Assembly: GCA_012519905.1 (NCBI GenBank)
Contig: JAAYPG010000133.1
Location: forward strand, 1-44,091
Source of the DNA: Clostridiales bacterium
GTDB lineage: Bacteria > Bacillota > Clostridia > Lachnospirales > Lachnospiraceae
Reading direction: 5' to 3'
DNA: 44,091 nt
The position numbers and the translations under genes were made by a program. The notes beneath the pieces are model-generated. The model ran no database searches and was not told the DNA's origin. It saw only the letters and a program-made list of their open reading frames with translations. Shown here piece after piece: positions 21,652 to 43,577 of the stretch (position 1 is the first letter of the stretch; each line of letters opens with the position of its first letter).

Positions 21652-21676
21652 AATAATCAAGTATTATCTAACAATT

Positions 21677-23189: not shown

Positions 23190-23277
23190 AACTGGGCTTG
23201 TATTACAAAACATACTAAATTATTCATTGATTTTTATTTAATATACTTTTTTGATTCTTAGCTGGGAGGGCTATGTT

Positions 23278-24699
23278 GTGATAAAAGATAACCAAAAAAC
23301 CTTAAACAGACTTCATATATTGATGGATGCTACTATAATAGTTATATCTTTTTTAATTGCTTATTATCTTAGATTTTATAGTTTTCTTACTAATCTAGCT
23401 ATATTTAAAGTAGAAAGTGGAACCTTCTATCCATTATCCGTATATGCACAGAGCTTGTATGCTTTAGTCCCTTTATATCTTTTTATCTATAATAGTGCAA
23501 AGCTCTATACTCCCAAACGGGGAAAAAGAAGATGGGCTGAGTTTTTCCATGTTAGCTATTCCAACTTTCTAGGCTTAGCTTTCTATTTCTTCTTACTATA
23601 TATGATAGGGGAAGATGATATATCAAGAATGTTTTTGGGTATGTTCACATTAATTAATGTTATTCTATGTACCCTAGCCAGAATGATGGTAGCCCAGGCC
23701 TTAATAGTTATTCGCAGACGGGGCTATAATCTCAAGCATGTAATCCTAGTTGGTTACAGCCGTGCGGCAGAAGCATATATTGACCGTATATTTGCTAATC
23801 CACAATGGGGATATTATATCCATGGTATACTAGATGATGATATGGAGATTGGCACAAAATATAAGAAAGTACCAGTCATAGGTAGTCTTGATCAGCTGGA
23901 GGAGTATCTGGTAAAAATGTCTCTAGATGAAATAGCCATTACCATAAACATCAAGGATTATGAGCTTCTGGAGAATATTGTTTTTATTTGCGAAAAATCT
24001 GGTGTTCATACCAAATTTATACCAGATTATTATGGCTTTATTTCCACAAAACCCTATACAGAGGATTTATATGGTCTTCCTGTAATCAATATTAGAAATG
24101 TACCCCTAACTAATACCTTCAACTGGGTAAGTAAAAGGATTGTAGATATCATTGGCTCATTTATAGGATTATTGGTCTGTGCACTTCCTATGTTGATTGT
24201 TGCTATAGTAATCAAATTGACCTCTAAGGGTCCAGTAATATTCTCACAGGTCAGAGTCGGTAAGAATAATAAAACCTTTAAAATGTACAAATTCAGATCT
24301 ATGACCCTACAGACTGAAGAGGAGGAAGAGAAGGCCTGGACCACTAATAATGATCCTAGAGTTACAACGGTTGGTAAGTTCATAAGAAGGACAAGCATAG
24401 ATGAACTTCCCCAGCTATTTAATATATTTAGAGGTGATATGAGCCTTGTTGGTCCAAGACCTGAAAGGCCGCAGTTTGTTGAACAGTTCAAAGAGGTTAT
24501 TCCTAGATATATGATTAAGCACCAGGTTCCTCCAGGACTTACTGGCTGGGCCCAGATTAATGGTTTTAGAGGCGACACCTCCATAAGAAAAAGAATTGAA
24601 CACGACCTTTACTATATTGAAAATTGGACCTTGGGCTTTGACTTTAAGATAATGTTTTTAACAATATTCAAAGGCTTTATAAATAAGAACGCCTATTAG
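23278..24699 (+). CDS. Undecaprenyl-phosphate sugar phosphotransferase (exopolysaccharide glycosylphosphotransferase)
   Basis: A 473-residue membrane enzyme of the WcaJ/CpsE type that moves a sugar-1-phosphate from a nucleotide sugar onto undecaprenyl phosphate, the first step of surface polysaccharide assembly. Four to five N-terminal transmembrane helices precede a CoA-binding-like domain (GYSRAAEAYIDRIFANPQWG). The C-terminal catalytic domain has a further helix and KMYKFRSMT, RRTSIDELPQLFNIFRGDMS and VGPRPERPQF. The start is taken as GTG at 23278 because GGGAGGG lies seven bases before it; the upstream TTG at 23251 has no ribosome site. It is the only plus-strand protein gene and faces the teichoic-acid genes. 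Confidence 0.93.
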   Translation: MIKDNQKTLNRLHILMDATIIVISFLIAYYLRFYSFLTNLAIFKVESGTFYPLSVYAQSLYALVPLYLFIYNSAKLYTPKRGKRRWAEFFHVSYSNFLGLAFYFFLLYMIGEDDISRMFLGMFTLINVILCTLARMMVAQALIVIRRRGYNLKHVILVGYSRAAEAYIDRIFANPQWGYYIHGILDDDMEIGTKYKKVPVIGSLDQLEEYLVKMSLDEIAITINIKDYELLENIVFICEKSGVHTKFIPDYYGFISTKPYTEDLYGLPVINIRNVPLTNTFNWVSKRIVDIIGSFIGLLVCALPMLIVAIVIKLTSKGPVIFSQVRVGKNNKTFKMYKFRSMTLQTEEEEEKAWTTNNDPRVTTVGKFIRRTSIDELPQLFNIFRGDMSLVGPRPERPQFVEQFKEVIPRYMIKHQVPPGLTGWAQINGFRGDTSIRKRIEHDLYYIENWTLGFDFKIMFLTIFKGFINKNAY

Positions 24700-24718
24700 G
24701 ATAGTTAAACAATATATT

Positions 24719-24766
24719 AGGAGCATTGATTTCATATGAATATAACCTCCACGAAACAATGCTCCT
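24719..24766. terminator. Shared terminator between convergent genes
   Basis: AGGAGCATTG (24719-24728) pairs with CAATGCTCCT (24757-24766), a perfect 10-bp stem. It ends right at the stop of the minus-strand gene (24767) and 20 bp after the plus-strand stop, so it can serve both directions. T-runs are weak on both sides. Confidence 0.75.
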
Positions 24767-25912
24767 TTAATTATTAGTAATTAGCTGTATAACTCTTTCA
24801 CTTGCTTTTCCATCAAGACGGGGAAAATGTTCTAAATTAAATCTACGAATACGGTCTAATGAATAATCCTCTTTCTTTATAATCTCTATAACCTCTTTGC
24901 AGTCTCTGGCAACCGGACCGGGTACAAAGCCTTCATATTCACAATAAAACCCTCTCCCATGGCCTTCAAACTCATCCAGATCATAGGCAAAGAAAATCAT
25001 TGGTTTCTCAGTTATCGAATACTCAAATATAATAGAAGAATAGTCTGTAATTAAGAGATCTGAAGTCATAATTAGCGCGGAAAGACTCCTCTCACCTGAC
25101 AAATCACATAGATTATCAATATGTAGCTTCTGTGCCATTCGGGCTACATAAGGATGTAGTCTTAGTCCCAGTATATAGTCCTTCGGCAGTTCATTTGCTA
25201 GTTCCTCCACATATTTTAAAGTAATATCAGAACCTAGATTTATATCCCTAAATGTCGGTGCATATAAAACCAACTTCTTGTCCATAGGTAGATGATACTT
25301 CTCATATATAAGTTGCTTATCTATATTGATATTGCTTCTTTCATTTTTCCACATGCGATATAATATATCATCGGTTTTAGGTAGACCCACTGGATATACC
25401 TTATCTATGTCAACACCAAATACCCCAGCATAAAGCTCTGCTATCTGCTCATTATTCACTATCAAATGGCTAATGTTGCTATTGGCCCTTTTTTCTAGCA
25501 ACCTTAGCTTGCCTTTGTTAACATCCTGACCGAACTTCTTTATAGTTCCTGTACCATGCCATAGCTGAATAACCTTAACCTTTGGTTTTACCCGTAGATA
25601 TGCCATAGGTAAGAATATATTATCCATCAAAATAGTTTTAGCTCTTGCCATATGATAGGGCTTATTAAAGAAAAAAGAAAACAAATTACCTAAACCCTTA
25701 AGACTCTTAACCATCTCTGTATGAGTTTTTGTAATATAGCTAAATTTATAACCACTATTTAGCCTTTGCAGCTCCTTTACAAGAATACTGACATTACTGT
25801 CTTCCCCATCATCATGGGTCATTATACAAAGTATCTTTTTTTCACTCACCGGAAAAAGTCTGCACAGGTAATAAATAAATGCAAATATATAATAACCAAT
25901 TGTCTTGATCAT
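24767..25912 (-). CDS. CDP-glycerol glycerophosphotransferase family protein
   Basis: A 381-residue membrane-associated transferase of the TagB/TagF superfamily, which adds glycerol phosphate (or ribitol phosphate) from the CDP-activated form to teichoic-acid chains. The hallmark segments are QLWHGTGTIKKFG, LYAPTFRD, ITDYSSIIFEYSI and GRGFYCEYEGFVPGPV. An N-terminal hydrophobic stretch (about 3-20) may associate with the membrane. The start ATG at 25912 has GGGAG upstream and lies 2 bp after the previous stop; TTG at 25918 is the alternative. It is the last gene of the teichoic-acid-type run. Whether it primes or polymerises cannot be told. Confidence 0.88.
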   Translation of the reverse strand: MIKTIGYYIFAFIYYLCRLFPVSEKKILCIMTHDDGEDSNVSILVKELQRLNSGYKFSYITKTHTEMVKSLKGLGNLFSFFFNKPYHMARAKTILMDNIFLPMAYLRVKPKVKVIQLWHGTGTIKKFGQDVNKGKLRLLEKRANSNISHLIVNNEQIAELYAGVFGVDIDKVYPVGLPKTDDILYRMWKNERSNINIDKQLIYEKYHLPMDKKLVLYAPTFRDINLGSDITLKYVEELANELPKDYILGLRLHPYVARMAQKLHIDNLCDLSGERSLSALIMTSDLLITDYSSIIFEYSITEKPMIFFAYDLDEFEGHGRGFYCEYEGFVPGPVARDCKEVIEIIKKEDYSLDRIRRFNLEHFPRLDGKASERVIQLITNN

Positions 25913-25914
25913 AA

Positions 25915-27114
25915 TCAATTACTCCCTTTTCTGTACCGGGTACGGTACCAGGTACCGTACCCGGTACAGAGATCAATTATTTTTCTGGATGCATTTCCAT
26001 CATCTGCGTGGTTGTATTTTTCTATGAAGGCTTCATATCTCTCTATATATAATTCGTAATCGTATTCTTTTATGGCCTGTATAAGGTCTTCTGTTGTTTG
26101 AACCACAGGACCTGGAGCTTCCTTAAAAATATCAAAATAAAAGCCCCTAAGCTTATCCTTATATTCACATAGGTCATAGCAGTAGAAGAACATAGGTCTT
26201 TTAAGTATGCTATAATCGAACATTACTGAGGAATAGTCAGTTACCATCATATCAGAGACAAGATATAATAGGGAGATATCATAGTTCTTATCAAATTCAT
26301 ATAAAAAACCTTTATATGCAGACCAGTCAATACTATCCTTAATAAGGTAATGATATTTGACCAGCCATACTGTATCCTCCTTCATCTGCTCCATAAGCAA
26401 GGGAAAATCTAGCCCTGTATTAAACTTATATATTCCATTTGAATAATACTCATTATCCCTCCAGGTAGGGGCATAAAGTATTATCCTTTTGTCCAGTGGT
26501 AGCCCCAGCTCTTCTTTAATTTTGCGGATTTCTTCCTTCTTGTTCCTTCTATATAATATATCATTTCTGGGATAGCCTATCTCCAGAATCTTCTTTTCAA
26601 ATCCAAATGCCTTCTTAAAAATCTCAGTTGAATACTTATTCTGCGACACTAAATAATCCCAAGTCTGTACATTATTGTAGAAGTTTTTTTTATAATCTTC
26701 CAGACTTGACTCCCCAGACATATATACCGCTTCCAGGTCCAGTGCAAGCTTTTTAAGCGGTGTACCATGCCATGTCTGTATGTAAATAGTATCCCGCCTC
26801 TTAATAATATACTTCGGAAACCTTGTATCGCTTATCCAGATTCCTGCTATGGCAAAATAATAAAAATACCGGAACCGGTTTCTTTTAATTATTTTAGCCG
26901 ATCCCGGTATCTTAACCTTTATATCCTCAAGTATGAAATAACAGCGATACTTCCTATCAAGACCAAGTCGAACCATTTCCTCATAAATCGCTCTTGGATT
27001 TCCTGTATAATTTCTACCCATATTACTTTCAAAAAGTATAATCCTATGATTTATAGGTAGCATCTTAGTTAGCAGCTTATAATAGGATAACAGAAGCTGT
27101 TTTAGTATTTTCAT
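25915..27114 (-). CDS. CDP-glycerol glycerophosphotransferase family protein
   Basis: A 399-residue TagB/TagF-type transferase, paralogous to the genes on both sides. Key segments are ESNMGRNYTGNPRAIYEEM near the N-terminus, QTWHGTPLKKLALDL, LYAPTWRDNEYYS, TDYSSVMFDYSILKRPMFFY and RGFYFDIFKEAPGPVV. The conserved family end ASRKIIDLC is followed by an odd 17-residue tail (TGYGTWYRTRYRKGSN and stop) encoded by the 41-nt palindrome at 25930-25970; related proteins here end without it. It lies 36 bp after tagD. Confidence 0.9.
   Translation of the reverse strand: MKILKQLLLSYYKLLTKMLPINHRIILFESNMGRNYTGNPRAIYEEMVRLGLDRKYRCYFILEDIKVKIPGSAKIIKRNRFRYFYYFAIAGIWISDTRFPKYIIKRRDTIYIQTWHGTPLKKLALDLEAVYMSGESSLEDYKKNFYNNVQTWDYLVSQNKYSTEIFKKAFGFEKKILEIGYPRNDILYRRNKKEEIRKIKEELGLPLDKRIILYAPTWRDNEYYSNGIYKFNTGLDFPLLMEQMKEDTVWLVKYHYLIKDSIDWSAYKGFLYEFDKNYDISLLYLVSDMMVTDYSSVMFDYSILKRPMFFYCYDLCEYKDKLRGFYFDIFKEAPGPVVQTTEDLIQAIKEYDYELYIERYEAFIEKYNHADDGNASRKIIDLCTGYGTWYRTRYRKGSN
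25930..25970. repeat. Perfect 41-nt palindrome within the 3' end of a coding region
   Basis: The 20-base arm 25930-25949 (TCTGTACCGGGTACGGTACC) is the exact reverse complement of 25951-25970, around the single base A25950. The sequence is far more GC-rich than its surroundings and is itself made of repeated GTACC/GGTAC blocks. It encodes the last residues of the 399-residue transferase. A short relative lies at 19197-19209. It could be a dispersed palindromic (REP-like) element or act as an RNA hairpin. Confidence 0.95.
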
Positions 27115-27149
27115 ACCTCTACCGTTCCTCTCTTATATTTAGTTCCCAT

Positions 27150-27536
27150 TTATTTGTGAAGATCATCCTTTATCTTCGATGTCGATATACCCTCAGTCCT
27201 TGGGAGATATACCACTTCACAATATTCCTTTAGGAAATCAAATTTGCCCTCCCAATCATCACCCATTACGAATACATCTACATCATTATCTACAACATCA
27301 CGGATTTTCTGTTCCCAGGTGTATTCCGGTATAACCTCATCCACATATTTTATAGCCTCTAATATTATCTTGCGATCCTCGTAGCTATGATATGCCTTCT
27401 TATTCTTAATTGCATTAAACTCGTCTGATGACAATACTACTATCAGATAATCTCCCAGCTCTCTAGCCCTTCTTAATAAATTTATGTGACCTACATGCAA
27501 AAGATCATAAGTTCCATATGTGATAACCTTCTTCAT
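27150..27536 (-). CDS. tagD: Glycerol-3-phosphate cytidylyltransferase
   Basis: A 128-residue enzyme that makes CDP-glycerol from glycerol 3-phosphate and CTP, the donor for the glycerophosphotransferases encoded beside it. The nucleotidyl-transferase site is GTYDLLHVGHINLLRRA with the HxGH motif at 14-17. YTWEQK, FVMGDDWEGKFD and the CTP-binding RTEGISTSKI complete the family pattern, and the length is typical of TagD. It lies in the same direction between the exporter genes and the transferases. Confidence 0.96.
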   Translation of the reverse strand: MKKVITYGTYDLLHVGHINLLRRARELGDYLIVVLSSDEFNAIKNKKAYHSYEDRKIILEAIKYVDEVIPEYTWEQKIRDVVDNDVDVFVMGDDWEGKFDFLKEYCEVVYLPRTEGISTSKIKDDLHK

Positions 27537-27670
27537 ACCATATTAATTCCCTTGGTTCAGAGAATATCCTCCTTGTCTTGTAAACTTATTCTTGGTCTAT
27601 TTCTAATACTGTCTTACTTTTTTTATATCTTGTAATTAATCTTGCTTAGCTCACTTGAATAATGTGATAC

Positions 27671-28660
27671 TTATACTTCCTTATTTGCATCCTCTAATAG
27701 ATCTTCTTTCCTAACTATTTCCTGGTCAGCTATAATGCTGGCATCAGGTACCAGCTCCTTACTTACTTCTACAACAGCATCAGTCACTAACTCCTTACTT
27801 GCTTCTACAACCGTATCAGGTGTAACAGCTGGCTTTTCTGTAGTTGCTTCAGTAGCGAGCAACTTTTTCTTCTTTTTCTTCTTCTTTTTAGGCTTTACGG
27901 CCTTCTCAGTCCCAATATATTTCTCTTCATATAGATTACAAATCTCTTCAACAGGCCCATCAGCCATCAGCTTTCCCTTGTCAAGAATTATTGCACGGCT
28001 ACAAATTCTTCTAACCTGCTCTATTGAATGAGATACAAAAAGAACTGTTACCCCTTTATCGAACATGTCGAGGATTCGCTTTTCACTCTTCTTACGAAAT
28101 TTCGCATCCCCAACAGATAGAACCTCATCAAGAATAAGAATCTCGGGATCCATAATGGTTGCAATAGAAAAACCTAGCCTTGCCTTCATACCAGATGAAT
28201 AATTCTTAACAGGTACATTTATAAAATCTCCAAGCTCGGAAAATTCTACAATTTCATTAAATTTCTCATTAATAAACTCCTTGGGGTAACCAAGCACCGC
28301 TCCATAGAGATAGATGTTTTCAACTCCAGTATATTGAGCGTCAAAGCCCGCACCTAGTTCCAAAAGAGGCACAATCTTTCCCCTTATAGACAACTCTCCC
28401 TCTGAAGCCTTTAAGACTCCTGCTATAATCTTAAGAAGTGTGCTTTTTCCAGCACCGTTAAGACCAAGAATTCCTAGACGATCCCCCTCATTTACCTTAA
28501 AGGATATATTCTTTAGGGCCCAGAATTCTTGATATCTTATTTCATTTTTTAATAATTTAATAAAGTATTCCTTTAAATTGTCTACTTTCTTTTCCATAAG
28601 GTTGAATCTCATGCCGACATCATCAACTCTTAAAACTTCTTTACCCACAGTATCCTCCAT
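27671..28660 (-). CDS. tagH: Teichoic-acid/polysaccharide export ABC transporter, ATP-binding protein (TagH-like)
   Basis: A 329-residue ABC ATPase of the TagH/Wzt class. The ATPase has Walker A GLNGAGKSTLLKI, the signature YSSGMKARLGFS and Walker B EILILDEVLSVGDAKF, which is specific to polysaccharide exporters. The usual module ends near 250. The C-terminal tail holds a run of nine Lys, then two 12-residue repeats (VEASKELVTDAV and VEVSKELVPDAS) and an acidic end. An alternative GTG start at 28648 with GGAGG five bases upstream is possible and would drop four residues. The permease gene lies 39 bp upstream on the transcript. Confidence 0.92.
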   Translation of the reverse strand: MEDTVGKEVLRVDDVGMRFNLMEKKVDNLKEYFIKLLKNEIRYQEFWALKNISFKVNEGDRLGILGLNGAGKSTLLKIIAGVLKASEGELSIRGKIVPLLELGAGFDAQYTGVENIYLYGAVLGYPKEFINEKFNEIVEFSELGDFINVPVKNYSSGMKARLGFSIATIMDPEILILDEVLSVGDAKFRKKSEKRILDMFDKGVTVLFVSHSIEQVRRICSRAIILDKGKLMADGPVEEICNLYEEKYIGTEKAVKPKKKKKKKKKLLATEATTEKPAVTPDTVVEASKELVTDAVVEVSKELVPDASIIADQEIVRKEDLLEDANKEV

Positions 28661-28699
28661 ATTCGAACCTACTATAAATCAGCATTTCTCTAAATTATA

Positions 28700-29467
28700 T
28701 TAAATATTCAGTATAAACTTGTCCTGCTTCTTATAAAACAATATAATACCAATTATTAGAGAAGCAAGGCTATATCCGATTGAAATCATTAGTGATTTCA
28801 TATCAAGAGGTGCTCCGTATATACAATTTCTAAAATTTACAATAATATGATAAATCGGATTAAAGTGAAAAATCCATTGTTTAGATACTATACTAGCATC
28901 ATAAAATATGGCGGAAGTATACATAATCATCATTAGAACAACACTCCATAAATACTCCATATCTCTAAAGAATACCGCCATAGTTGTTAAAATCAATCCC
29001 ATACCAAAACAAAGTATCAAGATCAAAATCAAGGGTATAAATGCATTAAATATATACTTTGTCGGGTTTACCTTAAATACAAGCATTGAACCAAACAACA
29101 CTAGCATTGATATAATAAAAATAATATAATTTGATAAAATATCCGATATAGGATAAATATACTTTGGTACATATACCTTCTTAATCATACCGCTATTTCT
29201 ACGGATTGATTTCATTGCCTGCTTAGTTGATTGTGCAAAAAATGAATACAAAAGTCTACCTGTTAAGATATATACTGGGAAGGTAGAATCCGACTTCTTC
29301 TTCAAGCTAGTAAAAACAATTGACAATACTATAGTTGTAAGAATCGGTTCCAAAAGTGTCCAAAGTATACCAAGATAGGAACGCCTATATTTTAACTTAA
29401 TGTTCTTCTTAGTTAGCTCAAATAAAAGATATCTATACTTTTTAAAATTCTTAAATACTCTCTCCAA
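28700..29467 (-). CDS. tagG: Teichoic-acid/polysaccharide export ABC transporter, permease (TagG-like)
   Basis: A 255-residue ABC-2 type permease with six hydrophobic segments. N-terminal FELTKKNIKLKYRRSYLGILWTLLEP is the hallmark of the family (core KYRRSYLGILW). It flips polyprenyl-linked polymer across the membrane together with the TagH-like ATPase. The start codon is TTG with GGGAG seven bases upstream; no ATG is available nearby in the frame. The gene lies between the large bifunctional transferase gene and tagH. Confidence 0.92.
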   Translation of the reverse strand: MERVFKNFKKYRYLLFELTKKNIKLKYRRSYLGILWTLLEPILTTIVLSIVFTSLKKKSDSTFPVYILTGRLLYSFFAQSTKQAMKSIRRNSGMIKKVYVPKYIYPISDILSNYIIFIISMLVLFGSMLVFKVNPTKYIFNAFIPLILILILCFGMGLILTTMAVFFRDMEYLWSVVLMMIMYTSAIFYDASIVSKQWIFHFNPIYHIIVNFRNCIYGAPLDMKSLMISIGYSLASLIIGIILFYKKQDKFILNI

Positions 29468-29526
29468 GGTTCTTCTCCCTCTTCTTATAATCCTAGATAA
29501 GCAGATAGACTAGAAAGTCTTTTTGC

Positions 29527-31950
29527 TTATTCACCTACTCTAAAAACTGATTCTACCACTTTTTTTGATGCCTGTCCATCTTCCCAGCCACAAAATCTGT
29601 TATAAAATTCCTCATACCTGTCTTTATACTTCTCTTGGATAACATCTATCTCCTTTATAGCTTCTATTACCTCTTCGGATGTAAAGACTAATGGACCCGG
29701 AACCTCCTTCTCTATATCAATATAGAAGCCCCTTAGGACGTCCCGATATTTCTCTAAATCATAGGTAAAGAAGAGCATAGGTCTTTTCAAATTGGCAAAA
29801 TCAAAGAATACAGATGAATAGTCTGTAATTAATATATCTGATATTAAATAAAGCTCTGATATATCATCATACTTGCTTACATTATATGCAAAACCCGATA
29901 AGGAACTAAGATCGAGTGAATCCGCTATAAAATAATGTGTCCTAATCAGTATAACATACTCATCCTCAAGCTCCTTTCTCATCAGGTCAAGATCCAAATG
30001 AAGCTTAAATTTATACTGACCCTTATCATAAAATTCATCATCCCTCCAGGTAGGGGCATAGAGTATTGTCTTTTTATCTCTAGGTATACTAAGACGATTC
30101 CTTATGATGGATGCTATCTGGTCACGGTCAGGGGAATGTAGGATATCGTTTCTGGGATAGCCGGTGTTTAGAATGGTCTTATTAAATAAAAAGCATCGTT
30201 TAAAGGTCTCACTACTGAAGCCATTGGCCGCTATAAGATAATCCCAGGCTCTGGACTGCTTATAGACCTGCTGCTTATATTTTGGTGTAGCTGAGCTAAT
30301 ATCATCTATATCAAATACCAGCTTTTTCAAAGGTGTTCCATGCCAGGTCTGTAAAAACACATTTTCCTTCCTCTTAACAGCCCACACAGGTTGTCTGCTA
30401 TTGAAAACAATATATCCACACCTTGCTAGATAATAGTAGTATCTTAAGCTAAACCTCTTGATTTTCTTATGCCTAAAAGGAATTTTTTTGCCTTTTTCAT
30501 TTATAACCCAAATGCATTTGTATTTTCCAGGTAAATTAGCAGAGATAAATTCATAAATATATTTCGGACTATCTGAATAGCTCTTCCCAAAAAAGCTCTC
30601 AAATAATATCCAGTTTCTTTTGACCGGCCTTTTTAGAAAGATATGAATATATAAGGATTTATAGAAGGCCTTTTTATTATGCATGATTCTCTTTAATTTC
30701 TTACGTCCTAAACGGAGCTTAACTATGCGAATTGATTTATTAACATCCTGATCAATAAGGGCTTTTATAAGTCGCTTTCTATACCCTCTAAGTTTTCTTA
30801 TAACTTCTCTATCTAACTCCTTAAAAAGCTTACTCATTATAAGAAAATTATCTTCACGCCATATATTATTTGCACTTCTTTTCAGTCTGGGGGCATATAC
30901 CCTGCTATAATAATTGACATACTTTTTATCAAATCTACGTTTTAGGTCCGATGGCTTCTCAATGCGCTTAATAGTCTCATAATAGACCTCAACATACTCA
31001 TTAAATCGGTTAGGATCCCTTATTTGAGATAGGGCTGGAAAATTAATTGCATCATTATGCTTCCTCTTTACATATTTGGCCCCAAACCTCTTCTTGTATC
31101 TATTAGTTTTTGATAAGGCTTCCATAAGAAATGGTATGTCAGAAAAATATACTAGGTTTTCAGTGAAGCGTATCCCATTTTCTTCAATTAGGTTACGTTT
31201 AAATAAGATATTAAGAACCGATATATTCCTTATACCCTTTCTTTTACTGACCAGTATGCGATATGCCATTCTTGTTCTGGCGGCTCTGCGAAGTAGCAGC
31301 TCCTCCTCAGTCAATTCATCATCAGTAACATAGCCATCATCATCTGCTAGATTACTCTTTCTGTCTTTTCTATCCTCTTTTGTATCCTTGCTTTCATCAG
31401 AGCTATCTTTGTCATCAGATGCATCATCAAATTCCTCGTAACTATCCTGTGACCCTTCCTCCTGGTCATCCTCCATTTTCAGATCAGGTGATTGAAGATC
31501 ATTTTCATCATTTTCTTCCTCCTGATCCTGCGCCTCCTGCTCCTCCTGTTTCTCCTGTTCCTTTAATAGATACACACTTCTTTGAAACCAGGTGGGCTTC
31601 TTCTTCCCGTATGTGATGTCATCATCTCTTTCCTGGGCTCCTGATACTAGCAGTTCAATCGCATCCTCATAGATATAATCATCACTGTCGAGAAAATATA
31701 TATAATCTCCGGTTGCCCTATCCAGTCCAAGATTTCTGGCGGCGGCAACACCGGTTTTATCATCTAGATGGTATAATTTTAAGTTCAATCTGTTCTCATA
31801 TTCGGAAATACAAGCTAAGTCTTCATCAGGTGAATGGTCATTTATTACAATAACCTCTATGTCATCATAAGTCTGTGCTACTACGCTGTCAAGGCAATCT
31901 CTTAAGTAAGCCTCTCCCTTATGAAATGGAATTATCACAGTAACTCTCAT
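29527..31950 (-). CDS. Bifunctional GT2 glycosyltransferase / CDP-glycerol glycerophosphotransferase
   Basis: An 807-residue fusion. Residues 1-130 hold a GT2 fold (VTVIIPFHKGEAYLRDCLDS, VINDHSPDED and the metal motif FLDSDDY). Then comes a strongly acidic, low-complexity insertion of about 90 residues, before the rest of the GT2 domain (RTRMAYRILV, FKRNLIEENGIRFTENLVYFSD). The C-terminal half is a TagB/TagF-type transferase with QTWHGTPLKKLVFDI, LYAPTWRDDEFYD, TDYSSVFFDFANLKRP and RGFYIDIEKEVPGPLV. It probably adds a sugar and glycerol phosphate to a surface polymer. The start at 31950 is preferred (GGAGG at seven bases); ATG at 31953 and TTG at 31956 are close. First gene of the run. Confidence 0.9.
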   Translation of the reverse strand: MRVTVIIPFHKGEAYLRDCLDSVVAQTYDDIEVIVINDHSPDEDLACISEYENRLNLKLYHLDDKTGVAAARNLGLDRATGDYIYFLDSDDYIYEDAIELLVSGAQERDDDITYGKKKPTWFQRSVYLLKEQEKQEEQEAQDQEEENDENDLQSPDLKMEDDQEEGSQDSYEEFDDASDDKDSSDESKDTKEDRKDRKSNLADDDGYVTDDELTEEELLLRRAARTRMAYRILVSKRKGIRNISVLNILFKRNLIEENGIRFTENLVYFSDIPFLMEALSKTNRYKKRFGAKYVKRKHNDAINFPALSQIRDPNRFNEYVEVYYETIKRIEKPSDLKRRFDKKYVNYYSRVYAPRLKRSANNIWREDNFLIMSKLFKELDREVIRKLRGYRKRLIKALIDQDVNKSIRIVKLRLGRKKLKRIMHNKKAFYKSLYIHIFLKRPVKRNWILFESFFGKSYSDSPKYIYEFISANLPGKYKCIWVINEKGKKIPFRHKKIKRFSLRYYYYLARCGYIVFNSRQPVWAVKRKENVFLQTWHGTPLKKLVFDIDDISSATPKYKQQVYKQSRAWDYLIAANGFSSETFKRCFLFNKTILNTGYPRNDILHSPDRDQIASIIRNRLSIPRDKKTILYAPTWRDDEFYDKGQYKFKLHLDLDLMRKELEDEYVILIRTHYFIADSLDLSSLSGFAYNVSKYDDISELYLISDILITDYSSVFFDFANLKRPMLFFTYDLEKYRDVLRGFYIDIEKEVPGPLVFTSEEVIEAIKEIDVIQEKYKDRYEEFYNRFCGWEDGQASKKVVESVFRVGE

Positions 31951-32001
31951 CATCAAGCCTCCAATCGTACCGGGATTATATGCGCCACTTAATTAGTAGT
32001 A

Positions 32002-36306: not shown

Positions 36307-37299
36307 CTATTCATCATACCCATAATCCTCTGCCTCATCTACATCAGGATCACTAAACTCTCTTCTCTCAGTGCTCTTTACATTTATATGCTTTACATTG
36401 ACCTGGGGCACTGTAACAGTGACCTTTGGAACTGCTTTCACATAATAGTAATATACATCATCCTCAAACTGGGCATACTCCACTCCCGAATAATCTAAGG
36501 TTAGCTTAAAGAAATGAATAATATAGACCAGTGCAATAGATACTATAGTACCTAGAATCATACTTAAAATCTGCTTAGATTGATTTAATATCAAGTAACT
36601 GATTAAGAAGCCTAATATTCCTGTTAATCCTCCTGCCAGTATTGATATCTCAAATGCATAATCAAAGGACATTTTTCTTATAAAATATGTTACCATTATT
36701 GTCAATGAAAATATGACAACAGTCATAATCATTTGACGATTCCCTGTCAGACTGTCAATAACATGAGTATAAAGCTGAATAATATCCTCGATTGATATAT
36801 TAACCTGCATGGTTATTGCTGATTTAATAATCTGAAAGAGAAAATATATTATTACACCACAGCTTGTAGGAATCATAGCTACTGGTGTGGATATAAGTCC
36901 AAGTAAAATAGGTATTATATATGGTATCTTAAGAAGAAACAATATTGGTACTGCAAGCAGTACATATCCATACTTGGGTGTATATCTCGCAAATAGGAGA
37001 TATAGTATCATCAATATAACAATTATCATAACAGATAATATCGGAGATATAAAATACACATGAAGCACAGATATTACAGCTGCTAGTAGAACCATAACAG
37101 CCGATGGTGTAAAAGCACTTAGTAAAGAAATGCCAAGTATGATGGGCAAGGATTTAAGTCTTTCATCATAGCCAATCTCTTTATTTATAGCCTGAAATGC
37201 TATAAAAGCAAAAATAAACTTTACTACCGGTAGAAGATATGCATCATATCTTTGATAAAAGTTTTTTATTCTTTCCCTGAGTTCAAGTAATTGTAGCAT
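36307..37299 (-). CDS. Polytopic membrane protein, function unknown
   Basis: A 330-residue protein with about eight to nine hydrophobic segments between residues 25 and 265, then a soluble acidic tail (about 280-330) with YAQFEDDVYYYYVKAVPKV and a C-terminal stretch rich in Asp and Glu. I do not recognise a named family. The start at 37299 is chosen because GGAGG lies eight bases before it; the upstream TTG at 37314 overlaps that ribosome site. It lies 30 bp before cdaA and 18 bp after the next small membrane-protein gene, so it is probably part of the c-di-AMP operon. Confidence 0.8.
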   Translation of the reverse strand: MLQLLELRERIKNFYQRYDAYLLPVVKFIFAFIAFQAINKEIGYDERLKSLPIILGISLLSAFTPSAVMVLLAAVISVLHVYFISPILSVMIIVILMILYLLFARYTPKYGYVLLAVPILFLLKIPYIIPILLGLISTPVAMIPTSCGVIIYFLFQIIKSAITMQVNISIEDIIQLYTHVIDSLTGNRQMIMTVVIFSLTIMVTYFIRKMSFDYAFEISILAGGLTGILGFLISYLILNQSKQILSMILGTIVSIALVYIIHFFKLTLDYSGVEYAQFEDDVYYYYVKAVPKVTVTVPQVNVKHINVKSTERREFSDPDVDEAEDYGYDE

Positions 37300-37316
37300 C
37301 TTGCCTTCCTCCAAAC

Positions 37317-37718
37317 TTATGAATCATGGGATGATTCATTGTATACTTTTTCTAGACGCTTTAATAATCTAAAATATCTTGAAAGCTTCTTTCTGGAAGC
37401 ATCATATTTCATGGAATATAGTATCAGTGCTCCCAGTCCAAATACTGTGATTGTCATTATATAGAAACCCAGTACATAGGTTCCCAAGAGCTTATAATCC
37501 AATGTAACAGCATTTTTAATTAGATATTCCATCCTGTAAAATACAATTAGGGCTATAATTAATCCATAGCCTATGGTCGCTGTTATAATTGATTTGAGAA
37601 CCTGTAACCTTACATAATCTGCCTTATAATATTTGCTAAGATATATATCTTCCTTGCCGTCTTTTTTCTCATACACCGCAAGCTTTGTCATTAACCTTAT
37701 TTTTTTAAAATTTAACAT
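37317..37718 (-). CDS. Small membrane protein, function unknown
   Basis: A 133-residue protein. Residues 1-40 are basic and soluble, two transmembrane segments lie at about 43-63 and 79-101, and the C-terminal 30 residues are basic with a helical look (SRKKLSRYFRLLKRLEKVY). I do not recognise the family. The ATG at 37718 has GGAGG five bases upstream; TTG at 37730 is less likely. It precedes the larger membrane-protein gene and cdaA by short gaps and seems to start the operon. Confidence 0.78.
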   Translation of the reverse strand: MLNFKKIRLMTKLAVYEKKDGKEDIYLSKYYKADYVRLQVLKSIITATIGYGLIIALIVFYRMEYLIKNAVTLDYKLLGTYVLGFYIMTITVFGLGALILYSMKYDASRKKLSRYFRLLKRLEKVYNESSHDS

Positions 37719-37860
37719 TGTAGCCTCCAATGATATACCATTTATACATGGTTCGCGACTATTTCTTCTAATCTATTATTCTATCGTCAATAGTATATCA
37801 CAATCATTCTTGATTTTGTAGGTTTATTTTGTAATTTAACAATTTCATGATTGATTTAGA

Positions 37861-40170
37861 TCATCTCAGCATAATACGCGATCCGTTGAAGGGTATTGTC
37901 TCCTTCTTCGTAAAGGTTGCTCTAAAGTTAAACACCCCTGCATAACCTTTATTATCCCAAGCTCCTCCATAAGTCAACACATAGGACACATCTTTTTCCG
38001 CCAGGTTATACCAAGCATCACAATAATAACTTGAGGTTGATGCTCCATTCCCTATTTCACTAGGAAACATAATTAGAGGGTTGCTTTTATCAAAGCCCAT
38101 TCTCTTAACAATCATATTACTAGGGTCACCAAATTGCTTTGCAGACAGCTGTACTTTTTGTATTGGAAGTTTATAAGCAATCTTTACAGTTCTATTATCT
38201 GGATATGTGATATAAAGTTCTGAATTCTTAACATAAGCACCATCCAGTATAATCCATACATCACCCCAAAGATTCTCAATGCCGCGGTATTTAAAGGATG
38301 ATTGTCCACTGTCTGATGAAACTCCTCCCGACATACTAACAATTTCATTCGTTTCTCCGCTTATAGAAGGAATACAAGTTATACCCGTTTCTCCTTGTAT
38401 AATATCGACTGGTTCTCCAGTAAATTCAATCTCTAAAATACCATTTTTCAAGTCATTTATCTGACTTATTTTCCTTTGAAAATGCTCCGTATTAACATAT
38501 TCCTTCCAGCTGCCAAGTATAGAAACCGCATCACCTACATGAAATTTCTTAGTCATATTTGTTTTTGACACATATATCCGATTCGTATGCTTCTCTGATC
38601 TGACTGCATAATAGGATGTACTCTTATCCTTTAGTAAATATGGCATATTAACATTTACAGAAAAAATCGATTGCGAATCTATTACTGCTGTTTCTACTAA
38701 GTACAGCTTTTGCACTGTCATAATTGAAAGCAAATCACACTCCATGAACCCTTTAGTGTTCTTAATAAACTTTTGTAGCTTATTATAGGAGCATTTAATT
38801 AAAGGATGGGACTGACTCACACTAACTAGCTTATCCCCCTCAAGGCTTGAAAGATATACACCGATATAGATAAAATCGATTTCTCCTTCGGGGGTAACAA
38901 AGGAAGGATCCACCGAAAACCCAATTTCCTTGGTCGGGCTAATCCACAGATATTCATAGCCGTTGATCACTTCCCGCTTACAATAAAATTTAGGTATCTC
39001 AACCATAATATTTCCCACACTACCATCCAGTGAAAAACTATCTTCTCCGCTGTAGGTGATTTTCTTTCTACCATCCGACAGGACCTGAACAGCACAAACT
39101 TTGATATCTGACCATGGATATATATAGTCAAAGTCATTTTCATAAGGGGTGAGTGATGTTTCACCTTCTATGGCATTAAAATGTAGACCTGCCGCATCAC
39201 CAACTCGTTCACAGACAGGATTACTATCCGTTAATTTCCATCTCACTCCATAGGTACCAGTATACTTAGTATCAGTATTCTTATCCCAGGTTACTTGTAT
39301 CTCGCATTTAGTATTTGTTGAAATCAATAACATGTCTCCTACCTTTAAATTCAACGGCTCCAGCTCAGCAGGCCTTTTATGATTATTTGAGGTCTTAGTA
39401 AAATACCATTTGTCCTCATCCATATGAAGAATATTTCTCTTTTTAACAGAAGGTAATTTTACTATTCTTTGATAAGACGGTTCATAGTTTGTGGGGACTT
39501 TACCATATTCAATCTGCATCTGCTTGTCTAAGTTCTCAGCACCTTCTTCCTTGTAATTAGCATAATAAACCCTGGCAGCTATTGCATTTGAAGGTAGGTC
39601 AACCTTTGAAAAAGTCTTATCCTGAAGAACGTCCCCTTCTATTTTATATTTTCTTGAGGCCCCTATATCTGTGATAATTTCACCATCGGCTGTCATGAAC
39701 TGCCAAGTTGACCTGTTGTGAGATCTACCGCTAAGCACAAGACTTTTTCCCTGTCCCGTCAGTACCGGAAACCATTTCGTAGTTCTATAATCCTTAGATC
39801 CCGCAGAACGGATATCCCTTCTTCCATCAAGCAGATATCCATAGTCATATTCACCATCGTACAAATTCTTGTTCTGTATTGTAAATACGATATCTTTGGC
39901 ATCTCCATCAATTGGTCTTATAGTAAGTTTACTCACTGGCTTCTTGATCAATATACCAGAAGTATCTCCAGAAGTATCTGAAGTGTACAAGACTGTCGCA
40001 TTTTCTATTTCTTTAAGATTTTCATTAATTACTTTTATTCTATTCATCTCTATATTATCCTTCTTCTTTATATAACTTATCTTAGAAAAACACAAAATAA
40101 TTATGACGACAATCGAAACCTGTAAAGAATAGTTAATTAATTTATTATAATTTATACTTTGAAACTTCAT
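37861..40170 (-). CDS. Membrane-anchored protein resembling phage tail proteins with a C-type-lectin/FGE-like domain
   Basis: A 769-residue protein. One N-terminal helix (about 14-28) has no cleavage site, so the rest is probably outside the cell. After a coiled-coil-like stretch (35-58) comes a region ending QIEYGKVPTNYEPS (219-232), a pattern typical of phage tail/receptor-binding proteins. Residues 305-505 hold YGVRWKLTD, YPWSDIKVC, EIPKFYCKRE, YLWISPT and LYLVETAVIDSQS, as in clostridial phage structural proteins. The end holds KYRGIENLWGDVWI (627-640) and GGAWDNKGYAGVF (735-747) with NGSRIMLR, the C-type-lectin/FGE-sulfatase fold used in diversity-generating retroelement targets. The start at 40170 has GAGGGG at eight bases. 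Role unknown. Confidence 0.75.
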   Translation of the reverse strand: MKFQSINYNKLINYSLQVSIVVIIILCFSKISYIKKKDNIEMNRIKVINENLKEIENATVLYTSDTSGDTSGILIKKPVSKLTIRPIDGDAKDIVFTIQNKNLYDGEYDYGYLLDGRRDIRSAGSKDYRTTKWFPVLTGQGKSLVLSGRSHNRSTWQFMTADGEIITDIGASRKYKIEGDVLQDKTFSKVDLPSNAIAARVYYANYKEEGAENLDKQMQIEYGKVPTNYEPSYQRIVKLPSVKKRNILHMDEDKWYFTKTSNNHKRPAELEPLNLKVGDMLLISTNTKCEIQVTWDKNTDTKYTGTYGVRWKLTDSNPVCERVGDAAGLHFNAIEGETSLTPYENDFDYIYPWSDIKVCAVQVLSDGRKKITYSGEDSFSLDGSVGNIMVEIPKFYCKREVINGYEYLWISPTKEIGFSVDPSFVTPEGEIDFIYIGVYLSSLEGDKLVSVSQSHPLIKCSYNKLQKFIKNTKGFMECDLLSIMTVQKLYLVETAVIDSQSIFSVNVNMPYLLKDKSTSYYAVRSEKHTNRIYVSKTNMTKKFHVGDAVSILGSWKEYVNTEHFQRKISQINDLKNGILEIEFTGEPVDIIQGETGITCIPSISGETNEIVSMSGGVSSDSGQSSFKYRGIENLWGDVWIILDGAYVKNSELYITYPDNRTVKIAYKLPIQKVQLSAKQFGDPSNMIVKRMGFDKSNPLIMFPSEIGNGASTSSYYCDAWYNLAEKDVSYVLTYGGAWDNKGYAGVFNFRATFTKKETIPFNGSRIMLR

Positions 40171-40311
40171 ATTGCGAGCCCCTCTATTAACCACATTTTG
40201 GAATATTGTCTCAATATAATATTAGCATAGTCCGGGCTCTATTTCCATTATTTTCTAAAGATTGTTTTGCTTTTAGTTTTGCTTCCAAACAAACCCTTTA
40301 ACACTTTACTA

Positions 40312-40356
40312 AAAAAGACACCTCGTTCTGATATTTCTACCAATAACGAAGTGTCC
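40312..40356 (-). terminator. Terminator after the GH10 gene
   Basis: GACACCTCGTT (40317-40327) pairs with AACGAAGTGTC (40345-40355) with one bulge or G-T pair. On the minus strand it is followed by TTTTTT. It lies about 30 bp after the xylanase stop. Confidence 0.85.
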
Positions 40357-40384
40357 TTAACTTATTCTCGAATGCTTATCTACT

Positions 40385-41644
40385 CTATACAGTAATTTCT
40401 ATTATATCATCATTTGAATTTTTATTAAGAGTGAATTTTATCGTCTTTCCATGAACTGTGATTTCATATTCTCCTTTAAAGCCATCCAGAATAACATTAC
40501 CATATTCGTCTGTTCGTAATTCACCTTCTGTATTCCATTCTTCACGGATCAGACGCTTCAATTCATGATAAGCTGGTTTTGTCGTGTTATCTTTACGAAT
40601 AAATCCACTTGGAGCTCCAAGCCATGCACCATCTGCAAAATCCCATCCGGTGATAGCTTCTACCAAAGGATGTTCAAACAAGATACGGTACATTTCAGAC
40701 CATTCCCTCATCTGTCTTTCCTCACCTTCTGATGTTGAAGGCCATTCATCAACCTGATAGTCATTTAGATCCACTATATCTTTGGGCATAATATCACCTG
40801 ACACCAGCGTATTCTCTGTAAAATGAAGAGGAAGTCCGAATACTGAGAATCTCTCAAGAATATCCTCAAGTTTTTCACGTCCCATATATCCCTGGTGTTG
40901 ATGAGTCTGGATACCGATTGCAGAAATAGGCACACCTGCATTCAAACATCCATCGATTAGAATCCTATAACTTTCAGACAGGTTGAAGTCATTAATAAGA
41001 AGAGTCGCATCTGGGTTAGCGCTCTTTGCAGCATCAAATACTTCCTTAACAAGACGAACTCTGCCAAGATCCTTACATATACGAGTAATCGCATTATCAT
41101 ATCTATCATATACAGGCATAATCACTACCTCATTGATAACATCCCACATATCTACTACACCACGAAATGCTGTAACATCACGATGAATGCGATCTAATTG
41201 CTTTTGTAAAATAGTCGCGTTGTCATAATCCATCAGCCAGTCTGCACAAGCCGTATGCCAACATAATGGATGTCCTTTCACTTTTACATTATTTTTTTGT
41301 AACATTTTTGCAGCTCGCATTCTGCTGTCTGTAAGAATTTCACCTTCTTTAGGTTCAAATCCTCCCCAGTAAAACGGAATCGTTCCATAATTAAATACTT
41401 CTAACCACTTATCCACTCTATCTTCGAAAAAGCTTTTCTCTGGTATTTGCTTATTATGTATAACATCTTTTTTCTCCATATCAACTTCCGATGTAGCCGA
41501 AAGAGAATCAAATGCGCCACAACCAAACAAAAACTGATGGTTCACTAATTTTACTTGTACAGAAGTATTTGAAAGTATATTTCCTTCACTATCTTTAAAA
41601 CGTACTTTTCTCACTGCTTTTCTATGTGCTAATGAACTACTCAA
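40385..41644 (-). CDS. Glycoside hydrolase family 10 endo-xylanase, no signal peptide
   Basis: A 419-residue GH10 enzyme that cleaves beta-1,4-xylan or xylo-oligosaccharides. The (beta/alpha)8 barrel shows GHPLCWHTACADWL, the acid/base Glu in MWDVINEV (E172 from this start) and the nucleophile Glu in LHFTENTL (E277). There is no signal peptide or membrane segment, so it probably acts on imported xylo-oligosaccharides in the cytoplasm. N-terminal residues 10-45 form a small beta-like extension. A TTG start at 41644 has GGGAGGG six bases upstream; ATG at 41659 and TTG at 41677 are alternatives. It follows the nitroreductase gene by about 55 bp. Confidence 0.9.
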   Translation of the reverse strand: MSSSLAHRKAVRKVRFKDSEGNILSNTSVQVKLVNHQFLFGCGAFDSLSATSEVDMEKKDVIHNKQIPEKSFFEDRVDKWLEVFNYGTIPFYWGGFEPKEGEILTDSRMRAAKMLQKNNVKVKGHPLCWHTACADWLMDYDNATILQKQLDRIHRDVTAFRGVVDMWDVINEVVIMPVYDRYDNAITRICKDLGRVRLVKEVFDAAKSANPDATLLINDFNLSESYRILIDGCLNAGVPISAIGIQTHQHQGYMGREKLEDILERFSVFGLPLHFTENTLVSGDIMPKDIVDLNDYQVDEWPSTSEGEERQMREWSEMYRILFEHPLVEAITGWDFADGAWLGAPSGFIRKDNTTKPAYHELKRLIREEWNTEGELRTDEYGNVILDGFKGEYEITVHGKTIKFTLNKNSNDDIIEITV

Positions 41645-41699
41645 TGTAAACCCTCCCATATTTTTAGTATTAGTCAAAAGATTAAAAACCCCCTAAGGA

Positions 41700-42287
41700 T
41701 TATTTAATATAAGTTACTGTATTTCCTATTCTATCAAGGGGTGTTCTGACAGGTAAGCCATCTTGTGTATCAGCATAACCCAAAGCTAATGCTCCATATA
41801 CACGCTCATCTTCTTCCAGACCAAGTTCTTTCATAGCATCCAGGATTACGGGATTTTCATTTAACCATCTCAACTGATTAATCCACACGCTACCCAAATC
41901 TAGTGCATTGGCCATAAGCATCATATTCTCAATCGCACAGGCACAGTCCGCAATATTATTCCCATATCCTTTCTTATTAGCAGTAACAATAAGAACTGGA
42001 CAACTATAGTGAAATACATAATTGCCTTTCTTTGATGCATTTATAGAATTTACCAGCGATTTGTATGTATTCTCCTGAATCTCCATCTTGGCAAATTCTT
42101 CTCTGGCTAGATCAGCTAGCTTATCCAGTACCTGCTTTCTCTGAATTACAATAAAATGAGTGCTTTGAGAATTCCCTCCACTTGGAGCATATCTTCCTGC
42201 TTCAATCACCTGATGAATCATTTCCTCAGGAACCATTTCATCTTTGAACTTTCGAGTGCTTCTTCTACTTTTAATAAAATCCAGCAT
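41700..42287 (-). CDS. Nitroreductase family protein
   Basis: A 195-residue FMN-dependent oxidoreductase of the nitroreductase fold. It opens MLDFIKSRRSTRKFKDEMV, with the SRRSTRKF FMN-phosphate-binding motif, then AGRYAPSGGNSQSTHFIVI, and later ENMMLMANALDLGSVWINQL and ALGYADTQDGLPVRTPLD. The substrate is unknown. The start at 42287 has GAGG nine bases upstream and lies 5 bp after the SDR stop; farther starts (42323) would overlap the SDR gene. It sits in a probable three-gene operon with the SDR and GH10 genes. Confidence 0.9.
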   Translation of the reverse strand: MLDFIKSRRSTRKFKDEMVPEEMIHQVIEAGRYAPSGGNSQSTHFIVIQRKQVLDKLADLAREEFAKMEIQENTYKSLVNSINASKKGNYVFHYSCPVLIVTANKKGYGNNIADCACAIENMMLMANALDLGSVWINQLRWLNENPVILDAMKELGLEEDERVYGALALGYADTQDGLPVRTPLDRIGNTVTYIK

Positions 42288-42291
42288 ACTT

Positions 42292-42999
42292 TTATCCCTC
42301 ATACTTCCATCCATGCTCGCCATGGTAAATCATCTGCTTTGTCATACCACCATCTATACAAATATTCTCACCAGTAATAAATCCCGCCTTATCAGAACAG
42401 AGAAAAAGAACCATATTAGCAATATCCATTGTCTTTCCTACTCTTCCTACTAGATGCTGATCAGCATCTGGCCCTTCATAGACAGCACCTTCGGTTTCAA
42501 TCCAACCTGGAGAAATAGAGTTAACCCTAACCTTTCCGGCTAAACTTACTGCAAGCGCGTGAGTAAGAGCAGCGATTCCGCCTTTTGCTGCTGAATAACT
42601 TTCGGTATAAGGCTGGCTCATTCTGTCTCTTGATGAAGACATATTAATTATACAGGCACCATCTGCAAAATGCTCCTGAAATAATTTCGAGAGATAAAAT
42701 GGTGCTGTCACGCCTACTGCCATGGCATACTCAAATTCTTCATATGAGCATTCATCTATACCACGCATGATAGGCAATGCATTATTGATTAAGTAATCAA
42801 CGTGACCATGTTTTTCAATCACATATCTTGCAAAAGCTTCCACTATTTCCTTTCTACCGATATCTCCTACATAATGGTCTCCATCAGCGATATCAATTAC
42901 TTCCACAATAGCGCCCTCTGCTTCAAAGGCTTCTTTTATAGTCTTTCCTATACCACGTGCTCCGCCTGTAACGACTACCACCTTATCTTTAAACTGCAT
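42292..42999 (-). CDS. Short-chain dehydrogenase/reductase
   Basis: A 235-residue SDR oxidoreductase. The NAD(P) site TGGARGIGK is at 11-19, NNA at 72-74, and the catalytic Ser-Tyr-Lys is present as NMSSSRD (121-123) and Y135-SAAK with Lys139. An acidic residue follows beta-2 (EVIDIAD), favouring NAD(H). The substrate cannot be told; the link with a xylanase gene suggests sugar or sugar-alcohol metabolism but does not prove it. The start has GGGAGG upstream. First gene of the unit. Confidence 0.92.
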   Translation of the reverse strand: MQFKDKVVVVTGGARGIGKTIKEAFEAEGAIVEVIDIADGDHYVGDIGRKEIVEAFARYVIEKHGHVDYLINNALPIMRGIDECSYEEFEYAMAVGVTAPFYLSKLFQEHFADGACIINMSSSRDRMSQPYTESYSAAKGGIAALTHALAVSLAGKVRVNSISPGWIETEGAVYEGPDADQHLVGRVGKTMDIANMVLFLCSDKAGFITGENICIDGGMTKQMIYHGEHGWKYEG

Positions 43000-43036
43000 A
43001 ATCCACCCTCCCCTCTTTGTTAGTATACAGAAAACC

Positions 43037-43126
43037 TTATTTAGTGTCCATAGTTATAACATCATTAGCCAAACTTAGTGTTGAGCCGTCATTAACATGA
43101 TATACTTTTAATCCATTACTTTTCAT
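43037..43126 (-). CDS. Possible 29-residue ORF, coding status uncertain
   Basis: An ATG at 43126 with GGAAGG just upstream opens a 29-residue frame (MKSNGLKVYHVNDGSTLSLA and nine more residues) before TAA. The codon use is ordinary. It may be a small peptide or the leftover N-terminus of a longer gene. It lies between the SDR gene and the 93-residue ORF on the same strand. Confidence 0.3.
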   Translation of the reverse strand: MKSNGLKVYHVNDGSTLSLANDVITMDTK

Positions 43127-43162
43127 ATACCTTCCTCGCTTTCGTGTATAATTCAGTCAACC

Positions 43163-43444: not shown

Positions 43445-43541
43445 TATCAACCTCCTAGTTTCTGTCAATAATATCAAATCTTAAATGTAAACGTCTTAAG
43501 TTGCTCAAGTAGTCTGTGTAAGCGTAAAGCCTACATGTTAT

Positions 43542-43577
43542 TTAAAAAAAGACCAGTAGCTTTTATCTACTGGTCTT
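43542..43577 (-). terminator. Terminator after metG
   Basis: AAGACCAGTAG (43549-43559) pairs perfectly with CTACTGGTCTT (43567-43577), an 11-bp stem with a 7-base loop. On the minus strand it is followed by a run of T residues. It lies about 80 bp after the metG stop. Confidence 0.93.

Follow-up and report, generated by a model that had tools for sequence, protein, structure and literature searches.

Membrane-bound cellular proteins with a C-type-lectin (C-lectin) domain have been treated, in the literature that we found, as hypermutated targets of diversity-generating retroelements (DGRs), as far as the accessible part of that work goes (PMC8144416). According to the portion of PMC6328139 at hand, TaqVP of Thermus aquaticus is a C-lectin of the FGE subtype with its variable region at the extreme C-terminus, and the enzymes of the FGE/SUMF1 type carry a Ser-Cys-Cys triad in a C-terminal segment. 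Here we describe P0001, a 769-residue protein with the same general architecture, which is encoded (stop codon included) on the minus strand at 37861..40170 of a 44,091-nucleotide stretch of DNA (hereafter, the window; positions 1 to 44,091 of contig JAAYPG010000133.1) from the Lachnospiraceae assembly GCA_012519905.1 (genome G000).

P0001 probably binds sugars at the cell surface with a fixed specificity, and is probably not a viral remnant, because its relatives repeatedly adjoin genes for surface sugars. The explanation that we prefer, and to which we give about an even chance, is that P0001 is a host-owned, surface-anchored, non-enzymatic glycan-binding protein of the phage-tail/FGE-type C-lectin family, with a glycopolymer of the cell itself as its presumed ligand. 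Its N-terminal helix would hold the protein on the outer side of the membrane, with residues 57-769 as the presumed ectodomain, in which the beta module and the C-lectin domain would face the wall. A glycan may then be bound by the beta module and/or by the C-terminal hairpin, which is fixed and rich in aromatic residues; this glycan could be the teichoic acid or exopolysaccharide of the same cell, and P0001 would retain, organise or shield that polymer at the surface.

Family, predicted fold and the C-terminal tail

A preliminary description of the window had reported motifs of clostridial phage tail proteins and a C-lectin/FGE-like end in P0001. The motifs are present, and PHROG 5302 ('tail protein') matched residues 286-754 far above chance (E 1.7e-41, profile positions 150-528 of 548); this family also matched 10/10 relatives scanned, from prophage through Prevotellaceae. 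No Pfam family was found for P0001, the sole match being TMEM171 below the cut-off (E 0.24), and no NCBIfam family matched. AlphaFold 2 models, built with 30-row alignments of natural sequences, had a predicted local distance difference test (pLDDT) value of 79.6 for the whole protein and 89.5 for residues 300-769 (predicted TM-score 0.90). Of 350,542 PDB chains compared with the models, only three, all of TaqVP (5vf4), matched with E<=0.001. For the model of residues 300-769, the best of these reached E 4.7e-7 with a probability of 1.00, and the alignments were gapped, with a root-mean-square deviation of 10.6-11.3 and TM-scores of 0.38-0.49; these moderate TM-scores indicate a likeness in fold and order of parts, not a close one. 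Mtd matched the P0001 model at E 0.08 only, and neither TvpA nor FGE was among the 50 structure matches listed for residues 300-769. Predicted viral structures gave 45 matches with E<=0.001, the best being a 'tail collar fiber protein' (1.4e-31). These results bear out the proposed C-terminal end: the core (residues 300-769; 37864..39273, minus strand), assigned from PHROG 5302 and from the TaqVP match of the model, is predicted to have an FGE-type C-lectin fold.

Residues 729-769 (37864..37986, minus strand) occupy the position of a DGR variable region, as judged from alignment and composition, and contain 8 aromatic residues, 3 AAY codons and 0 Cys; the conserved hairpin is at residues 734-750. 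The fold would also suit an FGE/SUMF1-type enzyme acting on a surface protein or polymer. However, the Ser-Cys-Cys triad is absent, given the lack of Cys in this segment, and no FGE-sulfatase was among the Pfam matches listed, so that we regard such an enzyme as very improbable.

The C-terminal fold had further been described as one that DGRs diversify in phage receptor-binding proteins. In five close relatives, however, residues 729-769 were conserved at 73-85% identity (mean 78% over ten pairs) and formed on average the most conserved region of the protein. They were more conserved than residues 621-728 (69-81%, mean 74%) in 8/10 pairs, and identity was 61-72% in core residues 306-500, 57-72% in residues 505-620, 51-66% in residues 80-235, 19-35% in residues 236-305 and 17-23% in the N-terminal 60 residues. 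In the last 41 codons, nonsynonymous divergence (dN) was 0.09-0.18, with synonymous divergence (dS) saturated or 1.2-2.3, and most of the protein likewise combined low dN with high or saturated dS. A tail that is more conserved than the neighbouring region is the opposite of what would be expected for a DGR target.

A genome-wide search of G000 for a reverse transcriptase (RT) gave 0 matches both with RVT_1 and with a five-row DGR-RT profile that scored 4e-169 on the prophage control G078, although a missed RT is possible in an assembly (2.59 Mb) that is 96.45% complete and lies in 197 contigs. The template-repeat search, which covered the window for a second tail copy and the rest of the genome at the protein level only, found none in the window (best non-self match E 2.2). 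On the absence of an RT match in G000, the conserved tail and the lack of a second tail copy in the window, we reject P0001 as a DGR target for its genome. As for diversification in trans by a retroelement elsewhere, the variable-region position and the FGE-type fold are as in DGR targets, and the prophage relatives L011 and L040 lie beside DGR-type RTs. The same three results, namely no RVT_1 or DGR-type RT match, no second tail copy in the window and a tail that is on average the best-conserved region, make this the least probable of the alternatives considered here. On the present evidence, both the enzyme and the in-trans DGR explanations are unlikely.

Two further modules were recognised in P0001. 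Residues 80-235 (39466..39933, minus strand; KNLYDG...NRSTWQF...YGKVPTNYEPS) are beta-rich according to the strands in the model, with pLDDT in blocks of about 40-90 in the whole-protein model and hence an unsure exact fold; we take this module to resemble a kind found in phage tail proteins. An extra beta module (residues 505-620; 38311..38658, minus strand) is placed by alignment between the core helices and KYRGIENLWG, and it is mostly gapped in the prophage members P0005, P0008 and P0009.

Relatives, surface-glycan genes and anchors

Relatives were collected by motif-based scans, and the sample is neither complete nor unbiased. A scan of the genome collection yielded 31 loci, from 32 of 67 candidate stretches, comprising 19 of the cellular type, 2 in prophages, 6 whose N-terminus is pilin-type or similar, and 4 in one Clostridia metagenome-assembled genome (MAG); the 19 cellular loci, the window and four further genomes make up the cellular set of 24. 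Seven genomes matched at the family level (G168 and G450, with E about 1e-3, were left out), 13 at the order level (G582, G078 and G243 were used and nine left out) and 19 at the class level (regions of nine others were used and nine weaker ones left out), each count including G000. A viral scan with P0001 alone found no relative among 8 stretches, a phage collection gave two weak matches, and a second, wider viral scan gave 38 loci.

In a first tree of 48 rows, the 24 cellular members formed one side of a branch with 100/99 support. A second tree of 56 rows, which added 11 of 35 new viral rows and dropped the long-branch phage rows L060, L061 and L115, separated a 27-row clade (24 cellular and 3 viral; 100/100) from all other phage, pilin and LamG rows. 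The three viral rows (L122-L124) were placed inside the cellular clade; L124 has a tail-fibre PHROG match, and L122 and L123 are viral by the label of their collection. Once these rows were included, a single clade of all 24 cellular members was rejected (approximately unbiased test, p-AU 8e-7), and the host and phage labels required at least 5 changes. These results indicate, from an unrooted tree, that the module crossed the boundary between phage and host more than once. P0001 itself belongs to a purely cellular Bacillota subclade of 15 rows (100/99 support), whose neighbourhoods contained no tail genes on reading, and its relatives occupy other chromosomal places. Within this sample, P0001 is therefore not a recent private capture, and the earlier idea of a captured module gives way to membership in a widespread branch, for the most part cellular, with ties to loci for surface glycans.

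Polysaccharide genes were found to adjoin many of the cellular members. In a Pfam scan of 20 neighbour proteins from ten loci, 17 were matched, and the families included pyruvyl transferase, TagF-type, Wzz, Wzy_C, LicD, glycerol-3-phosphate dehydrogenase and Polysacc_synt. The remaining three, flippase-like neighbours (L109, L112 and L044), had no Pfam match and were named by look, that of L109 showing a WZX_like match below the cut-off. Acetitomaculum ruminis DSM 5522 also has a relative close to genes of the TagF-like and pyruvyl-transferase kinds. Markers were then counted within 10 kb of the gene for 23 of the 24 cellular members (L038 and the 11 pilin/LamG-type members were left out). Near and far were judged from contig coordinates, and coordinates, strand and frame length served to recognise the contig in the genomes of L030, L035 and L044. 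Polysaccharide pyruvyl transferase (PF04230) was near the gene in 7/23 genomes (G025, G274, G771, G1056 and those of L030, L035 and L044), with at most 0.42 expected (P<=7e-8). PF04464 was near in 3/23 (G000, G025 and G274; expected at most 0.31) and PF01943 in 4/23 (G973, G771 and the genomes of L030 and L035; expected at most 0.77). At least one of the three was near in 9/23 genomes, with at most 1.49 expected (P<=5e-6), and the P values for the markers span 7e-8 to 6e-3.

In addition, 6/24 members lie on the same strand at a tight spacing (-4 to +13 bases) to the upstream gene of a polysaccharide-linked locus: L030 and L044 follow a flippase-type gene, L036, L109 and L110 follow a licD-flippase-like-gpsA series, and L112 sits between sugar-nucleotide genes. 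A tight spacing on one side is found for L038 and L022 too, but to unnamed genes. The order licD-like, flippase-like, gpsA and tail-like protein is conserved in L109 (5471-11420), L110 (8634-14520) and L036 (5966-12085), with licD and gpsA Pfam-checked in one locus each, and this gene order points to a glycerol-phosphate polymer.

Surface polymers often serve phages as receptors. Linkage to their genes would thus also fit a receptor mask or phage decoy, in which a displayed tail-type domain occupies the glycan of its own cell or titrates phage, thereby blocking adsorption. The fold and family shared with phage tail proteins are in line with this role, as are the three viral rows inside the cellular clade, which indicate that phages and hosts exchanged the module. 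However, a fixed binding site is a poor fit to an arms race, and we consider a dedicated mask or decoy rather unlikely. A more far-reaching proposal combines masking with the glycan-binding role: a tail receptor-binding module may have become, across several phyla, a fixed membrane-tethered lectin of surface-glycan assembly, which would bind newly exported teichoic acid or capsule of its own cell and both organise the polymer and mask it from phages with the same fold. We offer this as a speculative extension, with perhaps one chance in five of being right.

The N-terminal helix of P0001 (residues 1-56; 40003..40170, minus strand), identified from the model (helix 2-56) and from hydropathy, contains a hydrophobic anchor within residues ~11-34, with a 17-residue Kyte-Doolittle mean of 2.42 at residue 18 and no lipobox by the motif used. 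When an anchor or signal was called at a 17-residue N-terminal hydropathy >=1.6, it was present in 18/24 cellular and 10/11 pilin/LamG-type members versus 0/19 phage members (cellular versus phage, Fisher P 2e-7), and in 0/35 rows of the second viral scan, some of which are the same contigs or identical. For L030, L034, L035, L037, L039, L050, L051 and L054, the start codon was chosen within a longer open reading frame (ORF). The kind of anchor varies, with a transmembrane helix in P0001, a lipobox-like end in G011 and signal-peptide-like starts elsewhere, while the members from rumen species have a transmembrane stretch followed by TPR-like repeats, as judged by eye. Six members fall below the line (G002, G025, G139, G274, L043 and L056), L043 just short of it, although its near-twin L045 passes. 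The first four of these are among the six nearest same-family relatives, G011 and L029 being the others. The membrane anchor noted earlier is therefore real in P0001 and is not a constant feature of the family.

Other members of the wider family join the core to different partners. In L046 (9593-11062), L048 (2086-3801 and 9954-11420), L050, L051 and L053, all from uncultured Bacilli/Bacillales MAGs, the core follows a type IV prepilin-like N-terminus, recognised by TIGR02532 and PF07963 in L046 and by motif in the other pilin-type members, and the C-terminal hairpins are divergent. The genomes of L046 (G1132) and L048 (G1133) hold DGR-type RTs, which lie beside a different small target, and a DGR acting in trans on the pilin-type members was rejected accordingly; a search of the RT contig stretches of G1132 and G1133 with four pilin-type tails gave no template repeat. 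In L118 (5661-7021) and L119 (1165-2555), both Bacillales MAGs, a DGR-type RT is followed by an 81-residue ORF that contains GWWWTKTSDGDNDARVV close to its end and appears to be a DGR target in its own right. The verrucomicrobial member L042 (9905-12283) has the core followed by immunoglobulin-type domains. Four core copies with differing hairpins occur in one Clostridia MAG (L047, L049, L052 and L055), of which three have a signal-peptide-like start and one is truncated where the contig ends; L049, the one scanned, carries a LamG domain.

Setting of the gene in the window and in congeners

The ORF of P0001 is intact, with an ATG at 40170 that is preceded by a ribosome-binding-like AGAGGGG (40179..40185, minus strand, read from the sequence); an alternative GTG start 24 bases 5' of the ATG would give 777 residues. 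It is a single chromosomal gene, as previously described, with one copy in the assembly. Twenty window proteins were scanned against Pfam and ten besides P0001 against PHROGs. No structural phage family was found in either scan, the 5 PHROG matches among these ten being auxiliary, 'other' or unknown, which agrees with the earlier impression that no other phage gene lies near P0001. With P0001 also placed in a cellular subclade, a recent prophage remnant is not supported.

A wall-teichoic-acid type cluster lies at 23251..31956 of the window, 5.9 kb from the P0001 gene and associated with it by position only. By Pfam, it comprises a sugar transferase (23251-24699, plus strand), three TagF-like genes (24767-25918, 25915-27114 and 29527-31956), a cytidylyltransferase (27150-27536) and an ABC transporter of the TagGH type (27671-28660 and 28700-29467). 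In the congener G025, the copy is flanked on one side by genes for a binding protein, a ClpX-like protein, an HtrA-like protein and a sugar transferase, which match window genes 17511-24696 at 53-76% identity, and on the other side by a pyruvyl transferase gene and a TagF-like gene at the contig end (30% identity to a window TagF). Two congeners therefore carry the gene close to one and the same bordering block, with its exact place and the set of polymer genes differing between them. This block is not beside the gene in the nearest relative, G011.

The xylanase and c-di-AMP neighbours named in the preliminary description were confirmed as GH10, CdaA (DAC and CdaA_N) and YbbR, but they do not lie beside the gene in the relatives read, and it is surface-glycan genes, not noticed before, that recur as neighbours across the wider family. 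The adjacent GH10 gene would suit an adhesin for foreign glycans, a fixed lectin that ties the cell to a plant polymer or to partner cells. Related loci include Herbinix MAGs and several MAGs from rumen or gut (goat, sheep and deer), and Herbinix luporum, according to the available part of PMC4956452, degrades cellulose and came from a biogas reactor. Most cellular DGR targets, in what is accessible of Roux et al. 2021 (PMC8144416), are membrane-anchored binders of extracellular substrates. On the other hand, GH10 is not a shared neighbour, and the linkage observed is to genes of glycan export (linkage to glycan breakdown was not counted). An adhesin of this kind is a minority possibility, on a par with the far-reaching proposal above.

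Among the 33 other genomes of the genus, long matches were found in G011, G002 and G025 and a remnant spanning 66 codons in G028, and the genes around these four copies differ. The spot of the gene in the window, 5' of the cdaA operon, is taken by other genes in 6/6 congeners for which about 7 kb upstream could be read; L169, a seventh stretch, was too short for the comparison. Such patchiness (3/33 genomes with long matches, the G025 copy being broken, and 1 with a remnant), with each copy among different genes, would be expected of mere cargo, a mobile gene of the tail type that drifts in and out of genomes and has retained no function for the host. In contrast, most of the protein combines low dN with dS that is high or saturated, the cellular subclade is deep, and export signals and operon positions are kept in many members; these features argue for a kept function, and we judge mere cargo to be improbable.

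Several observations weigh against a lectin for the glycans of its own cell. The gene can be lost, as indicated by the G025 copy, which carries a TAG, and by the G028 remnant. No glycan genes were read within ~7.5-9 kb on either side of the copies in G011 and G002, nor is a PF04230, PF04464 or PF01943 marker on the same contig in these genomes, and none were read near L033, L039, L042, L043, L045, L056 and L038, some of which are on short contigs. The P values are optimistic, since the markers were picked after the neighbourhoods had been read, and the PF01943 match in G973 is below the Pfam cut-off. Between the gene and the teichoic-acid cluster of the window lie leuA and the cdaA operon, and the main TagF-like genes of G025 are on another contig (C95). 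Moreover, 6/24 cellular members have no strong N-terminal hydrophobic stretch, and some may thus be cytosolic.

The interval 37731-43653 of the window, between the cdaA operon and a tRNA-binding-domain gene, is a variable spot, and a lysS-like gene lies further upstream of it in 3/6 congeners (L171-L173). Two membrane-protein-like genes are encoded on the minus strand just upstream of cdaA (36307-37314 and 37317-37730), and neither matched Pfam or PHROG families at the limits applied. The first, of 335 residues, is present in 29/34 genomes of the genus, and the two adjoin in 7/7 congener stretches, with a cdaA-like start next where the sequence reaches. It is possible that they are partners of c-di-AMP synthesis.

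Comparison with described C-lectin and tail proteins

P0001 resembles the phage and prophage tail proteins of PHROG 5302 in its core (residues 286-754), its motifs and its C-terminal FGE-type hairpin. It differs from them in its location on the host chromosome, its N-terminal anchor, its conserved tail hairpin and the lack of tail genes among the neighbours scanned and of an RT match in G000. Phage tail structural proteins are encoded among tail genes, and P0001, as far as its neighbours were scanned, is not. TaqVP has its variable region at the same position, the extreme C-terminus, but shares only about 12% identity with P0001, which is not diversified and has extra N-terminal modules and an anchor. 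The tentaclins, in the accessible portion of PMC10743442, are phage receptor-binding proteins that also have a C-lectin domain; unlike P0001, they are phage-borne and have the C-lectin at the N-terminus, followed by immunoglobulin domains.

A literature search, mostly over the opening parts of abstracts, brought up no account of a protein of this kind in glycan loci, and one may exist elsewhere. If P0001 and its relatives bind the glycans of their own cells, they would supply a set of lectins for polymers that resist study and a tangible example in which to test whether hosts reuse phage receptor-binding modules on their own surface. The cellular membrane-bound DGR targets of Roux et al. 2021 share with P0001 an N-terminal transmembrane or signal segment and a C-terminal C-lectin domain, as far as the available text of PMC8144416 goes, and the words capsul, polysaccharide and pilin are absent from its main text. 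In contrast to those targets, no DGR was found for P0001, and its family is linked to polysaccharide and teichoic-acid loci. Taken together, the results describe a cellular branch whose would-be binding hairpin, in the part tested, is fixed, and which shows linkage to genes for capsule and teichoic acid.
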